NCBI RefSeq assembly: GCF_014023125.1
Contig: NZ_CP048914.1
Coordinates: 1,330,698-1,394,697, forward strand
Origin: Candidatus Xianfuyuplasma coldseepsis
GTDB lineage: Bacteria; Bacillota_I; Bacilli_A; Izemoplasmatales; Izemoplasmataceae
Length of the DNA: 64,000 nucleotides
Direction: 5' to 3'
In this document: positions 12,973 through 52,795 of the stretch, one piece after another
How the letters are laid out: the number at the start of each line of letters is the position of its first letter
Position numbering within the stretch: the stretch's first letter is position 1
Program-made: the position numbers and the translations under genes
Notes under the pieces: model-generated
Told to the model about the DNA's origin: nothing
Databases searched by the model: none
Seen by the model: the letters and a program-made list of their open reading frames with translations, nothing else

Positions 12973-15039
12973 ATGAGTCAGAAACTTGTAATCGTCGAAT
13001 CCCCCAGTAAATCGAAAACCATTGAGCAGTATCTTGGACCCGATTATACGGTATTATCCTCCAAAGGACATATCCGTGATTTGGCCATCCGTGGCCAAGG
13101 TGGACTGGGATTGGATATTGACAATGACTTCCAACCACAGTATGAAGTCATCAAAGAAAAGAAAAAAGTAGTCGCTGATTTGAAAAAAGCCGTTCATAAA
13201 ACGGATGAAGTATTTTTAGCGACCGACCCCGACCGTGAAGGAGAAGCCATTAGTTGGCATCTGTTTCAGACGCTGGATATCGGTGATCGCCCGACCCATC
13301 GTGTTATTTTCAATGAAATCACACGAGATCGGGTGTTAGAAGCATTTGAACATCCACGAGATATTGATTATAATCTCGTCTCTTCGCAAGAAACCAGACG
13401 AATTTTAGACCGGATTATCGGATTTAAATTATCGAAGTTATTGCAGAATAAAATTAAAAGTAAATCTGCAGGACGTGTGCAAAGCGCAACCTTAAAAATT
13501 ATTGTCGATAAGGAAAAAGAAATCCAAGCGTTTGTTCCCGAAGAATATTGGAAAGTTCAAGCACAATTTGAACTTTTTAATGCGGAATTAGCTAAATTCA
13601 ACAATACCAAAGTGGAATTGTCCTCTGAACAAGAGACCAATGAACTCGTCGCAACATTGGATGATAACTATCTTGTTGCTACTGTTGAACAACGCGAACG
13701 TAAACGTGAAACTAAACTTCCATTTACGACGTCGTCGCTACAACAAGAAGCATCCAATAAACTAAATTTTAGTTCTCGTAAAACGATGTTGATTGCCCAA
13801 CGATTATACGAAGGAATCGACTTGGCTAACGAGACGGTTGGTTTGATAACCTATATGCGTACCGACAGTATTCGTCTGTCGGAAACTTTTAGTTATCCTG
13901 CAATCAAGTTCATTGAAGAGGAATATGGAAAAGCATACAAAGGATATATTCGTAAAGCCAAGAAATCTCTGAATGTTCAAGATGCACATGAGGCGATTCG
14001 TCCAACAAGTGTATTCCATCGTCCAAAAGATGTCAAACAATACTTGTCCCGTGATGAGTATAACCTCTATAAGTTGATATATAATCGAACGTTAGCGTCT
14101 TTAATGAAGGCAGCCAAAATTCAAGTAACCGATGTCTTGCTTACCAATCAACAAGCAGAGTTCAAAGCATCGGCACAAGAAGTTGTGTTTGATGGGTACT
14201 TGAAAGTATATACCTACGATACCGTGCAAACATCGCAATTACCGGAACTTACTGAAGGAGATGTGTTAACGGCATTAAACGTCGAGACCACCCAAAACTT
14301 CACATCACCACCGGCAAGATACAGTGAAGCACGGCTCATTAAAGAAATGGAAGATCTCGGGATCGGTCGTCCATCGACCTATTCCCAAACGATCTCGACA
14401 TTGAAGAATCGGAAATACGTGTCCGTCAAAGAAAAGCGATTCATTCCGACGGAACAAGGAATGTTAACGATTGAAAAACTGGACCAATTCTTCAGCCAAA
14501 TAGTGAGTGCAGACTATACCGCTCGGATGGAAAAAGTCCTCGATGATATCTCTGAAGGCGAAGAACACCAAACACGGATCGTCACCCAATTCTACAATTC
14601 CTTTATCCCGATGGTCGAAAATGCCAATAAAAACATGGAAAAAATCGCACCCAAATATACCGGTGAAGATTGTCCCAAATGTGGCCATAAAATGGTGTTT
14701 CGCCAATCCAAGTATGGAACCTTTGAAGCATGCAGTAATTTCCCTGCTTGTAAATACATTAAGACCAAAGAAAAAGAAGCGCGTATAGAACCCAAAACCA
14801 CCGGGATTACCTGTCCTAAATGTGGAACCGGGGAAATCGTTGAACGTGTCGCCAAAAAAGGACGCAATGCCGGTAAGACGTTCTATGCATGTAATAATTT
14901 CCCGAAATGTCGCAATATGCTATTTGGGAAGCCAACTGGTGAAGCCTGTCCTGAATGTGGCCGACTACTCATTGAAAATGACAAAGGTGAAGTCGTTTGT
15001 TCCAACTCCAAAGAGTGTGGATTTGTTGTCTCAAAATAG
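12973..15039 (+). CDS. topA: DNA topoisomerase I (type IA)
   Basis: TopA relaxes negative supercoils through a transient tyrosine-DNA bond. The 688-residue protein starts with a TOPRIM domain (VIVESPSKSKTIEQYLG, and DPDREGEAI near residue 82). The catalytic Tyr294 lies in LITYMRTDS. The C-terminus has three four-cysteine zinc ribbons, beginning CPKCGHKM, CPKCGTGE and CPECGRLL, as in Bacillus and E. coli enzymes. The start is fixed by AAGGAG. It stands alone between prmC and a small RNA locus, not next to the usual trmFO. Confidence 0.97.
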   Translation: MSQKLVIVESPSKSKTIEQYLGPDYTVLSSKGHIRDLAIRGQGGLGLDIDNDFQPQYEVIKEKKKVVADLKKAVHKTDEVFLATDPDREGEAISWHLFQTLDIGDRPTHRVIFNEITRDRVLEAFEHPRDIDYNLVSSQETRRILDRIIGFKLSKLLQNKIKSKSAGRVQSATLKIIVDKEKEIQAFVPEEYWKVQAQFELFNAELAKFNNTKVELSSEQETNELVATLDDNYLVATVEQRERKRETKLPFTTSSLQQEASNKLNFSSRKTMLIAQRLYEGIDLANETVGLITYMRTDSIRLSETFSYPAIKFIEEEYGKAYKGYIRKAKKSLNVQDAHEAIRPTSVFHRPKDVKQYLSRDEYNLYKLIYNRTLASLMKAAKIQVTDVLLTNQQAEFKASAQEVVFDGYLKVYTYDTVQTSQLPELTEGDVLTALNVETTQNFTSPPARYSEARLIKEMEDLGIGRPSTYSQTISTLKNRKYVSVKEKRFIPTEQGMLTIEKLDQFFSQIVSADYTARMEKVLDDISEGEEHQTRIVTQFYNSFIPMVENANKNMEKIAPKYTGEDCPKCGHKMVFRQSKYGTFEACSNFPACKYIKTKEKEARIEPKTTGITCPKCGTGEIVERVAKKGRNAGKTFYACNNFPKCRNMLFGKPTGEACPECGRLLIENDKGEVVCSNSKECGFVVSK

Positions 15040-15179: not shown

Positions 15180-15209
15180 TTGACATTTTTAGGCGTTATG
15201 TGTTATATT
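15180..15209 (+). promoter_or_regulatory. Promoter of a candidate small RNA
   Basis: TTGACA, an 18-base spacer and TATATT preceded by TGT (extended -10). No coding frame starts nearby; the predicted transcript begins with a hairpin near 15216. Confidence 0.65.
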
Positions 15210-15215
15210 AAAGAT

Positions 15216-15308
15216 GCGACATAGTCGCAACTTATCCCTTACATAGCATGGTGAATATTTATTATTCACACATCCCCTTCCTTAATCCGCCGAGAGGCGG
15301 ATTTTCCC
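15216..15308 (+). ncRNA. Candidate C-rich small RNA between topA and ftsY
   Basis: The roughly 90-nt predicted transcript has its own promoter and terminator and no start codon with a ribosome binding site. Three stems are visible. TGCGAC pairs with GTCGCA (15215-15229). ATG plus GTGAATA (15248-15257) pair with TATTCAC and CAT (15263-15273) with one bulged A. AATCCGCC pairs with GGCGGATT around GAGA (15284-15303), forming the terminator. Between them are unpaired C-rich segments, ATCCCTT and CATCCCCTTCCTT, which could pair with AAGGAGG-type ribosome binding sites. That layout resembles RsaE/RoxS-type small RNAs, but family membership is not shown. SRP RNA was considered and rejected. Confidence 0.5.
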
Positions 15309-15334
15309 TTTCTATAGGGTATTTTTTATTATTA

Positions 15335-15363
15335 TGGTATAATTTGGATGGGTATGTTATAAT
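15335..15363 (+). promoter_or_regulatory. Tandem extended -10 promoters of ftsY-ylxM-ffh
   Basis: Two perfect TGnTATAAT elements sit 20 bases apart: TGGTATAAT (15335-15343) and TGTTATAAT (15355-15363). Neither has a convincing -35. They precede the ftsY ribosome binding site (GAGGTGAG). Confidence 0.65.
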
Positions 15364-15393
15364 GATTTTTGGTTTTTTGAGTGAGGTGAGATG

Positions 15394-16362
15394 ATGGGAT
15401 TCTTTAAGAATTTATTTCAATCCAAAAGTAAAAAAGAACAAGCAGAGAAATATCGTATTGGAATGGCGAAAACCAGGCGTGGTGTCCTCGCTCATCTTCA
15501 AGAATTATTAGACAATCGGTCGGATATATCCGATGACCTTTTTGATGAACTAGAAGAAATCTTTATCATGGCCGATATTGGTGTCAATACCGTTGTTAAA
15601 ATTGTCAGTCACCTTCGCAAAGAAGTCGATACAAGAGGGGTTACGGATGTTGAGGAAGTAAAAGAATTATTGATTGATCAATTGTTTCGTTTGTATGTGA
15701 AAGATTCCATTGTATCTTCGAATTTAGATATCCAACAAAATCGGGTTAATGTCGTGTTGTTTGTCGGTGTTAATGGTGTTGGAAAAACAACAACAATAGC
15801 GAAAGTAGCTTATGAATACATCAAAAAAGGAAAACAAGTACTGATGGTGGCCGGTGATACATTTCGTGCTGGAGCGATCAATCAATTAAAGATATGGGCA
15901 GAGCGTGTTGGTGCAGATTTTTATGCCAAAGAAGAAGGCAGTGATCCGTCCAGTGTGATGTTTGATGCCATCGAACATGCCAAGAAAAACGAGATTGATG
16001 TAATCTTGTGCGACACGGCTGGACGGCTTCAAAATAAAACGAATTTGATGAAAGAATTGGAAAAGATTAATAAAGTTATTGGACGTGAAATTGATGGTGC
16101 ACCCCATGAAACATTATTGGTGATTGATGCGACAACGGGACAAAATGGATTGTCACAAGCAAAAATCTTTAATGAAGTGACAACCATTACTGGGATAGTT
16201 CTTACCAAGTTAGATGGAACAGCAAAAGGTGGTATTGTGCTTGCGATTCGTGATGAAATGGATATACCGATTAAATACGTCGGTCTAGGCGAAACCCTAG
16301 ATGACTTAGAGCATTTTGATATTGAGGAATACATCTATGGCATGTTTGAGGGGATTTTCTAA
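15394..16362 (+). CDS. ftsY: Signal recognition particle receptor FtsY
   Basis: FtsY is the SRP receptor GTPase that delivers ribosome-nascent chains to SecYEG. It has a short N-terminal charged region (no long acidic A domain), the helical N domain, then the G domain with GVNGVGKTTTIAK (P-loop), DTAGRLQNKTNLMKEL and TKLDGTAKGG. Two ATGs stand in tandem; 15394 has better spacing from GAGGTGAG than 15391. The stop overlaps the ylxM start by one base. The cluster ftsY-ylxM-ffh joins the SRP GTPases and their partner. Confidence 0.96.
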   Translation: MGFFKNLFQSKSKKEQAEKYRIGMAKTRRGVLAHLQELLDNRSDISDDLFDELEEIFIMADIGVNTVVKIVSHLRKEVDTRGVTDVEEVKELLIDQLFRLYVKDSIVSSNLDIQQNRVNVVLFVGVNGVGKTTTIAKVAYEYIKKGKQVLMVAGDTFRAGAINQLKIWAERVGADFYAKEEGSDPSSVMFDAIEHAKKNEIDVILCDTAGRLQNKTNLMKELEKINKVIGREIDGAPHETLLVIDATTGQNGLSQAKIFNEVTTITGIVLTKLDGTAKGGIVLAIRDEMDIPIKYVGLGETLDDLEHFDIEEYIYGMFEGIF

Positions 16363-47685: not shown

Positions 47686-48409
47686 AACCGTAATTATTAC
47701 TGGTGGAAACACGGGAATCGGACGTGAAATAGGACTCCATTTCGGTAGTAAAAAAGCCAATGTAGTCGTCAATTACATCTTTAACGAAGAAGCCGCCGAT
47801 GATACGGTACATCATATTAAAAACCTTGGGGGAAACGCGATAAAAGTGTATGGCGATGTCACCAAGTTATCCGATTGTGAAGCCATTGTTCAAGCAGCAG
47901 TAGAAACGTTTGGACAAGTTGATGTATTGGTGAATAATAGTGGTATTACTCGCGATAATCTCATCATGCGCATGAAAGAAGAAGACTTCGATCAAGTTAT
48001 TGATGTCAACTTAAAAGGAACATGGAACATGTGTAAAAGCGTTGCCCGAAAGATGACGAAACAGCGCAGTGGTTCCATCATCAATATAAGTAGTGTCGTC
48101 GGAATTATGGGAAATGCGGGTCAAAGTAACTACGTTGCTAGTAAAGCTGGAATTATTGGGTTAACCAAGAGTTTAGCGAAAGAATTTGGACCACGCGGAG
48201 TCACGGTAAATGCGGTTGCACCTGGATTCATTGAAACAAAAATGACCGAGGTGCTTCCTGAGGACGTTAAGAAAGCCTATATGGCTCAAATCCCACTAGG
48301 AGTATTTGGAAAACCACAGGATATAGCCTATGCATGTGCCTTTTTAGCAAGTTCGAAAGCACGTTATATTACTGGACAAGTATTGAGTGTTAATGGGGGG
48401 ATGTTGTAA
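47675..48409 (+). CDS. fabG: 3-oxoacyl-ACP reductase
   Basis: FabG is the NADPH-dependent ketoreductase of the elongation cycle, a short-chain dehydrogenase with TGGNTGIG nucleotide loop, NNSGITRD, catalytic Ser in INISSVVG and YVASK. The 244-residue length is standard. A strong AAGGAGG lies within the end of fabD. Its stop overlaps the fabF start. Confidence 0.96.
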   Translation: MNNKTVIITGGNTGIGREIGLHFGSKKANVVVNYIFNEEAADDTVHHIKNLGGNAIKVYGDVTKLSDCEAIVQAAVETFGQVDVLVNNSGITRDNLIMRMKEEDFDQVIDVNLKGTWNMCKSVARKMTKQRSGSIINISSVVGIMGNAGQSNYVASKAGIIGLTKSLAKEFGPRGVTVNAVAPGFIETKMTEVLPEDVKKAYMAQIPLGVFGKPQDIAYACAFLASSKARYITGQVLSVNGGML

Positions 48410-52508: not shown

Positions 52509-52536
52509 TTGACTTTAACTGGTCAAGTGATACAAT
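52509..52536 (+). promoter_or_regulatory. Promoter of the cobalamin-controlled operon
   Basis: TTGACT, a 16-base spacer and TACAAT with TGA extension. A dyad CTTGAC-N8-GTCAAG (52508-52527) covers the -35 and could be the end of dut transcription or an operator. Confidence 0.7.
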
Positions 52537-52545
52537 AGAGATAGA

Positions 52546-52795
52546 TGTTAGGTGTCACAGGGTGACATAACAGGGAATTGAGTGCAAGTCTCAAGCTGTC
52601 CCAGCAACCGTAAAACGGACGAACTGCAAGATACCACTGCGTAAGCGGGAAGGTGCATAGTAGGATGAAGTTAAGCCGGTAGACCTACCTAGTATCGAAT
52701 GTACAATACTCCTGGGCATTGAGTAGACGTTTACTATACTAATCTTTTGCGATTAGTATCTTAAATGTGAATCATCCAGGAGGATGGTTTTTTTC
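52546..52795 (+). promoter_or_regulatory. Cobalamin riboswitch with terminator/antiterminator switch
   Basis: The aptamer shows the standard landmarks in order: an ACAGGGAA...GTGCAAGTC...GCTGTCCC region, a GCAACCGTAA segment, the B12 box CCACTG (52634-52639), GGGAAGG (52647-52653), AGGATGA (52662-52668) and AGCCGG...GACC (52674-52685). The switch is also visible. CTCCTGG (52709-52715) can pair with CCAGGAG (52776-52782). This excludes the terminator ATCATCC/GGATGGT (52771-52788), which is followed by a T run. Bound cobalamin should favour termination and shut off the three genes downstream. Confidence 0.95.

Follow-up and report, generated by a model that had tools for sequence, protein, structure and literature searches.

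We identified a family of small non-coding RNAs that is absent from Rfam 15 and was previously uncatalogued, and whose copy between topA and ftsY of Candidatus Xianfuyuplasma coldseepsis is, by prediction from its sequence, a complete gene for an RNA that has its own promoter, hairpins and terminator (positions 15180-15328 of the window, the whole stretch of 64,000 nucleotides of DNA analysed here; it falls within about 1345877-1346030 of the chromosome, contig C1). A predicted promoter and terminator of its own, the lack of a coding frame, and covarying stems around conserved unpaired segments are features of a C-rich regulatory small RNA (sRNA), and we judge it to be a new family of this known, trans-acting kind, the prophage-borne copies being its unusual side. 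The host is a deep-sea wall-less bacterium with a genome of 1,958,905 bases in one contig, and belongs to the Izemoplasma group, the free-living relatives of mollicutes. We found no small RNA of this group in the literature, nothing on point in the literature on Izimaplasma/Haloplasma and on phage sRNAs, and no description of the new RNA in the available parts of the literature on Acholeplasma sRNA.

Results

Anatomy of the RNA gene

The features of the locus are listed in Table 1. An 18-nt spacer separates TTGACA from TGTTATATT, and the promoter matches the consensus at 11 of 12 positions. Promoter scanning overall gave 7 promoter-like sites versus 7.8 in shuffles, i.e. no excess, and the real evidence for the promoter is therefore its conservation in relatives: among the copies at the topA-ftsY locus (class A, see below) the exact TTGACA is kept in 36 of 37, and the TG before the -10 box in all 37. 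The TATAAT-type boxes further downstream, between the RNA and ftsY, also recur in many relatives.

Table 1. Predicted features of the RNA gene and its neighbours (window coordinates)
Feature	Positions	Strand	Basis
topA, upstream neighbour, outside the RNA	12973-15039	+	ORF; Pfam on the L142 orthologue
Promoter: TTGACA (15180-15185), extended -10 TG and TATATT (15204-15209)	15180-15209	+	Sequence, conservation
5' hairpin TGCGAC-ATA-GTCGCA, probable 5' end of the RNA	15215-15229	+	Fold; compensatory changes
Conserved unpaired segment 1, ACTTATCCCTTACATAGCATG (C-rich motif and CATAGCATG)	15230-15250	+	Mean pairwise identity 0.969, 36 class A copies
Central hairpin GTGAATA-loop-TATTCAC	15251-15269	+	385 of 385 cells paired, 55 sequences
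Conserved unpaired segment 2, ACATCCCCTTCCTT, C-rich	15270-15283	+	Mean pairwise identity 1.0, 36 class A copies
Terminator hairpin AATCCGCC-GAGA-GGCGGATT	15284-15303	+	Sequence; two-sided changes
Second small hairpin, CCCT..AGGG, with T-rich tract; class A copies probably end here	15306-15328	+	
Extended -10 TGGTATAAT, probable separate ftsY promoter	15335-15343	+	Sequence; recurs in relatives
ftsY, downstream neighbour, outside the RNA	15391-16362	+	ORF; SRP54 domains in the L142 orthologue

The preliminary description of this locus had proposed that a promoter and a terminator frame a gene-free stretch of about 90 nt, with the 5' end in a hairpin. The hairpin does lie at the expected start, and the promoter, the lack of a conserved frame and the terminator hairpin all stand; the length probably does not, as only TTTTCCC comes after the terminator hairpin. 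Given this tail and the second small hairpin, which is kept in most class A copies (15306-15327; CCCA..TGGG in L012, for example), we place the probable 3' end close to 15325, for an RNA of about 110 nt, within an overall predicted range of about 90-114 nt.

The fold energy of the RNA was below that of 200 of 200 shuffles, both for 15214-15312 (z -5.87) and for 15215-15328 (z -5.34). As the preliminary description had it, the C-rich segments are unpaired in the predicted fold, bar a few closing pairs at the 3' end of segment 1.

The sole ORF of at least 40 aa inside the locus has 48 aa (15248-15394). We rejected this ORF, together with the conserved ATG in GCATG, as coding. Among 73 copies scanned, the ATG of GCATG was found in 60, and over these 60 the frames were distributed 35/16/9, with a spacing that varied from 17 to 28 nt and no frame in common. 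The RNA is thus non-coding.

Conservation and covariation

Nowhere is the RNA more conserved than in its two C-rich unpaired segments (21 and 14 nt), which are 97% and 100% identical between 36 species. The same 36 class A copies have a mean pairwise identity of 0.991 in the -35 box, and of only 0.319 in the spacer, 0.329 upstream and 0.36 downstream. The preliminary description had staked its reading on conservation of the C-rich loops in relatives, and had suggested a covariation search there; the loops proved near-invariant, in favour of that reading, and the stems around them covary.

In the first and last stems of 47 sequences, 611 of 611 cells were paired, and 12 of 13 pairs had two-sided changes, with 68 such cells versus 13.8 in shuffles, a control that takes no account of relatedness among the sequences. 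No shuffle attained the observed values, and sliding the partners abolished the signal. Compensatory changes were seen in 4 of 5 pairs of the 5' hairpin and two-sided changes in 8 of 8 pairs of the terminator hairpin. The central hairpin, fully paired in the sequences compared (Table 1), varies little, with a two-sided change in one pair; most prophage-type copies have it swapped for a different hairpin, TGTGT..ACACA.

Distribution

A search at the DNA level was positive in 40 of 61 genomes (the window's own and relatives), with three copies in the window's own genome. We also derived a covariance model from 47 copies and searched the order with it. Of 90 genomes, 51 were positive: 47 of the 49 from f1, the family of the window, 4 of 34, one of them weak, from f3, and 0 of 7 from f2. 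The two f1 genomes without a match are 67% and 69% complete. Positive genomes hold 1-4 copies each. Across the class, the covariance search matched 47 of 395 genomes, 13 of them outside the order, with weaker forms in other families; family f18 had a match in 9 of 28 genomes, and its copies read ACTTATCCCCTACATA..CATCCCCTTCCT. A second model (R2), run on 392 genomes sampled from the phylum, gave 13 hits, all within the same class and none outside it. Fifty-eight stretches were matched in a pattern scan of named genome contigs, under titles such as Candidatus Izimaplasma/Izemoplasma, Mollicutes, Mycoplasmatota, Tenericutes, Bacillales, Acholeplasmataceae and the like. Two of the matches, in genomes G348 (L153; one of the 13 outside the order) and G062 (L154; inside it), were not counted as members, as their segments are absent or present only in pieces.

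Proposed pairing with ribosome-binding sites

On balance, and by analogy with known C-rich sRNAs, we favour the view that this free-standing gene would produce a trans-acting C-rich sRNA that pairs with the ribosome-binding sites (RBSs) of several mRNAs and blocks their translation without Hfq. Once transcribed, the RNA would present the unpaired C-rich segments UUAUCCCUUACAUAGCAUG and ACAUCCCCUUCCUU to short G-rich RBSs (AAGGGGAU, AAGGGAUA, AAGGAGGGG-like), and pairing there would repress the mRNAs concerned. According to the available parts of two papers (PMC4132741, PMC8216469), unpaired UCCC/C-rich regions characterise the sRNAs of low-GC bacteria that pair with SDs, and RoxS, FsrA and LhrC bind SD regions via such regions, which our segments resemble. 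The SDs of our host are of the AGGAGG type (AGGAGG lies upstream of 132 of 729 gene starts), its 16S 3' end is standard, with the CCTCC anti-SD, and Hfq was not detectable in any of the 21 genomes searched (5 of 14 control genomes were positive). Together with the C-rich UCCC segments, these features make Hfq-free RBS pairing the most likely mode of action.

We then looked at complementarity to gene starts. The test covered the 729 gene starts of our own script's ORF calls, about 44% of the genome, with 20 shuffles per motif. At a duplex energy of -12 kcal/mol or below there was no excess: 88 for motif 2 versus a mean of 77.9 in shuffles, and 157 for motif 1 versus 181.8. Target prediction thus did not bear out the RBS blocking put forward in the preliminary description, gene starts being no more complementary to the motifs than to shuffled ones. 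One candidate target, fabF at 48409, paired with both motifs and was rejected as a coding-sequence coincidence: the gene is present in 30 of 41 genomes, 25 loci were examined, 23 of which yielded upstream sequence, and in the window's genome its G-run lies at the end of the upstream coding sequence and is not kept as an RNA site. In many genomes AGGGGATG-N0-9-ATG occurred more often than the reversed pattern used as a control; we gave this no weight, because purine-rich SDs and coding bias can explain the excess. Among 41 genomes, 13-nt complements of the segments, with G-U pairs tolerated, fell mostly in the RNA's own genes, and few long sites were found elsewhere.

The lack of a pairing excess, the failure of fabF and the lack of long complements suggest that pairing, if any, uses short seeds. 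Short seeds do not fully explain the length of the frozen segments, and invariance over 14-21 nt, exceeding what a short RBS seed needs, leaves room for a protein or another partner. Such a partner might even be the main one, in that a protein or the ribosome would recognise the invariant segments (with the RNA as a decoy, CsrB-like in principle) and pairing with mRNA would be secondary. We consider this unlikely. Stretches of 21 and 14 nt that are (near-)invariant over 36 species would suit it, as would the lack of a pairing excess at gene starts and the scarcity of long complementary sites; however, the segments are unpaired and C-rich with UCCC, which is the mark of SD-pairing sRNAs described in the available part of PMC4132741, and no described protein-binding RNA family was matched in Rfam.

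Comparison with known RNA families

At the locus, no Rfam model came near its cut-off, whether the window was scanned at gathering or at permissive thresholds. The best raw hit, RAGATH-9 on the minus strand (30.6 bits versus 75.2), scored 17.9 bits on a shorter stretch and was dropped. Elsewhere in the window, the scan found a cobalamin riboswitch (97 bits) at 52533-52706 (+).

The closest known family in plan is RsaE/RoxS of Staphylococcus and Bacillus, which is likewise about 100 nt long, has its own promoter and terminator, carries unpaired C-rich segments, including CAUCCCCUU, beside a hairpin, and ends in a terminator hairpin. The new RNA differs from it in the 5' hairpin, in the first segment (UUAUCCCUUACAUAGCAUG), in being multicopy and in having prophage-borne copies, and the two do not overlap in distribution in the genomes sampled. 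True membership, by shared ancestry followed by divergence, seems to us improbable. A sub-threshold alignment does bring out a similar order of parts (GUGAA hairpin, CAUCCCCUU, terminator), but the RsaE model (RF01820) gives the locus 13.5 bits versus a gathering cut-off of 79 (E 3.8-8.8), finds no match at E up to 5 in eight loci with diverged members, and matches 0 of 395 class genomes, with the B. subtilis control positive; R2, for its part, has no hits outside the class among the 392 phylum genomes. Given the low score, the absence of RsaE from the class sample and diverged members that are no nearer to it, we did not file the RNA under RsaE. The likeness to RsaE/RoxS drawn in the preliminary description is thus apt for how the RNA may work, and not for the family it belongs to.

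LhrC1-5 of Listeria monocytogenes are also multicopy, are 111-114 nt long and have several CU-rich UCCC segments, and their pairing with RBSs has been demonstrated, according to the available part of PMC4132741. The five LhrC copies are near-identical, with UCCC partly in loops (in loop A, a single strand and the terminator loop), whereas the copies of the new RNA, 1-4 per positive genome, differ in stems and promoters, some lie in prophages, and their C-rich segments stand between hairpins, the terminator loop of the window copy being GAGA. Nothing in the Rfam scans matched LhrC. In Bacillus subtilis, FsrA and CsfG have C-rich regions and predicted folds that resemble RoxS, as the available part of PMC8216469 describes. 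No family of the FsrA/CsfG type was matched in the Rfam scans of the window. The Qrr RNAs of Vibrio are also encoded in multiple copies; their pairing segments stay constant, the remainder varies more, and they need Hfq. The new RNA resembles them (RF00378) as a set of multicopy sRNA genes with constant segments, but its sequence is another (15.7 bits versus 50) and Hfq was not found in the host genomes searched.

Three classes of copy

The copies fall into three context classes. When ORFs were clustered automatically, class A copies were placed between topA and ftsY orthologues at 33 of 37 loci. The remaining four comprise two at which an antisense ORF led to a wrong call on one flank and two that the motif expression missed and that were therefore unscanned. 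One of the 33 loci, L142, belongs to another family of the class.

Class B copies lie directly behind the gene for a large protein, a putative lipoprotein, in 8 of 11 loci; two others follow a glutathione peroxidase gene and one is at a contig end. The large protein of the window's genome matched nothing in Pfam, NCBIfam or PHROG; one of these large proteins begins with a lipoprotein-type signal. About 1.6 kb from the class B copy of the window's genome there is a c-di-GMP-I riboswitch (53.8 bits, L032:304-379, minus strand).

Class C copies, judging by the genes around them, belong to prophages of the siphophage type and are found next to serine recombinases. In 11 of the 12 loci examined (L031 and L213, both among the 12, are the same element), the RNA follows, on its own strand, the gene of a large serine recombinase or what is left of one, the exception being L047, with no recombinase before the RNA. 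The distance from the recombinase end to the C-rich core is 56-67 nt, and about 355 nt in three remnant loci. Neighbouring genes include those for a repressor, an antirepressor, a tyrosine integrase and a replication initiator, and the copy on the MO-XQ 'plasmid' ends a block of terminase, portal, major head, major tail and tape measure genes. At the opposite end of the MO-XQ prophage (L356:43643-45223) lies a third large serine recombinase. In IMG/VR, 4 of 7 stretches have the RNA downstream of two tandem genes of about 566 and 550 aa; the matches in L211, L214 and L215 were rejected as chance matches inside genes. INPHARED phages gave no match to the RNA.

The 3' end of a tRNA or tmRNA faces the RNA in 6 of 11 scanned class C loci (with L031/L213 as one element). 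Between the two, in L031, L210, L212 and L159, we observed repeated AAAGTTCAA-type motifs that resemble the tRNA T-arm and are possible attachment-site parts; a search for attachment-site repeats in the MO-XQ prophage yielded no more than short matches such as chance would give. In four loci, L033 (in the window's genome), L050, L051 and L140, the recombinase is reduced to 122-233 aa and both segments are intact, which suggests that hosts retain the RNA after recombinase decay. Separately, L033:3-1675 (C1, about 81.8-83.5 kb of the window's genome) and L051 share a series of hydE, a 105-aa fragment of the HydG start, a 122-aa recombinase remnant and the class C RNA; as this order recurs in G008, hydG sequence was seemingly interrupted or taken up by an old prophage.

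The -35 boxes of classes B and C have only 3-5 of 6 matches. Upstream repeats could be seen by eye, such as ACGCTTCTAGCG in class C and GCATAT..TTTGCAT in class B. Class B promoters, for example those of L035, L036 and L037, share an element of the form GCATAT-N-TTTGCATA, which overlaps the -35 region and is perhaps a regulator site.

The RNA is thus tied to no single neighbour gene, occurring in three context classes and in the f18 loci, and the presence of the same RNA in contexts as unrelated as topA-ftsY, a putative lipoprotein gene, prophage recombinases and the f18 loci argues that it acts in trans. That it has no regulatory role, as a selfish or mobile repeat or a piece of a phage attachment site, is very unlikely: class C copies do lie between a recombinase gene and, in several cases, the 3' end of a tRNA or tmRNA, but class A stays in place between topA and ftsY with its stems kept by compensation, and both segments persist in class C copies whose recombinase is truncated. 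A leader or attenuator that acts on ftsY in cis is hardly credible: the synteny with ftsY in the window's family and at L142 would suit it, but the terminator and a separate -10 box come in between, there is no ftsY near class B, class C or f18 copies, and the RNA is neither continuous with ftsY nor specific to it. The position upstream of the SRP genes, which the preliminary description had pointed out, is no sign of an SRP-operon element, as other copies lie far from ftsY.

Discussion

Conservation, covariation and stand-alone copies in unrelated contexts lend good support to the earlier reading of the locus as a C-rich regulatory sRNA; the paralogous and prophage-borne copies go beyond what that reading foresaw. 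If the RNA acts by blocking RBSs in trans, as we favour, its copies may differ in supply rather than in activity. The topA-ftsY copy, with its near-consensus promoter, would maintain a basal level of the RNA, and the paralogues with weaker -35 boxes, behind the putative lipoprotein gene and in prophages, would provide more of the same activity in response to other, copy-specific signals. We infer this division, constitutive for class A and regulated for classes B and C, from the near-consensus and the weak -35 boxes and from the upstream repeats.

A wider reading, which we offer as a tentative possibility and lean against, is that the RNA is a clade-wide core riboregulator shared by host and prophage, with frozen recognition segments. 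The phage copies, placed in the lysogeny region beside recombinases and under a different promoter, would allow lysogeny to add to or retune the host regulon, hosts would keep these copies after prophage decay, and, besides mRNAs, a dedicated protein or the ribosome may recognise the segments.

The carrier strain is in pure culture and has public RNA-seq (strain zrk13; PRJNA664657, PRJNA669477 and PRJNA669478, as given in the available part of PMC8397711), so that these proposals are testable at once. With its frozen segments, hosts in which Hfq was not found, and prophage-borne copies, the family would be a good case for studying sRNA action in Hfq-free bacteria, and the prophage-borne copies may serve for asking why phages carry host-type sRNAs.
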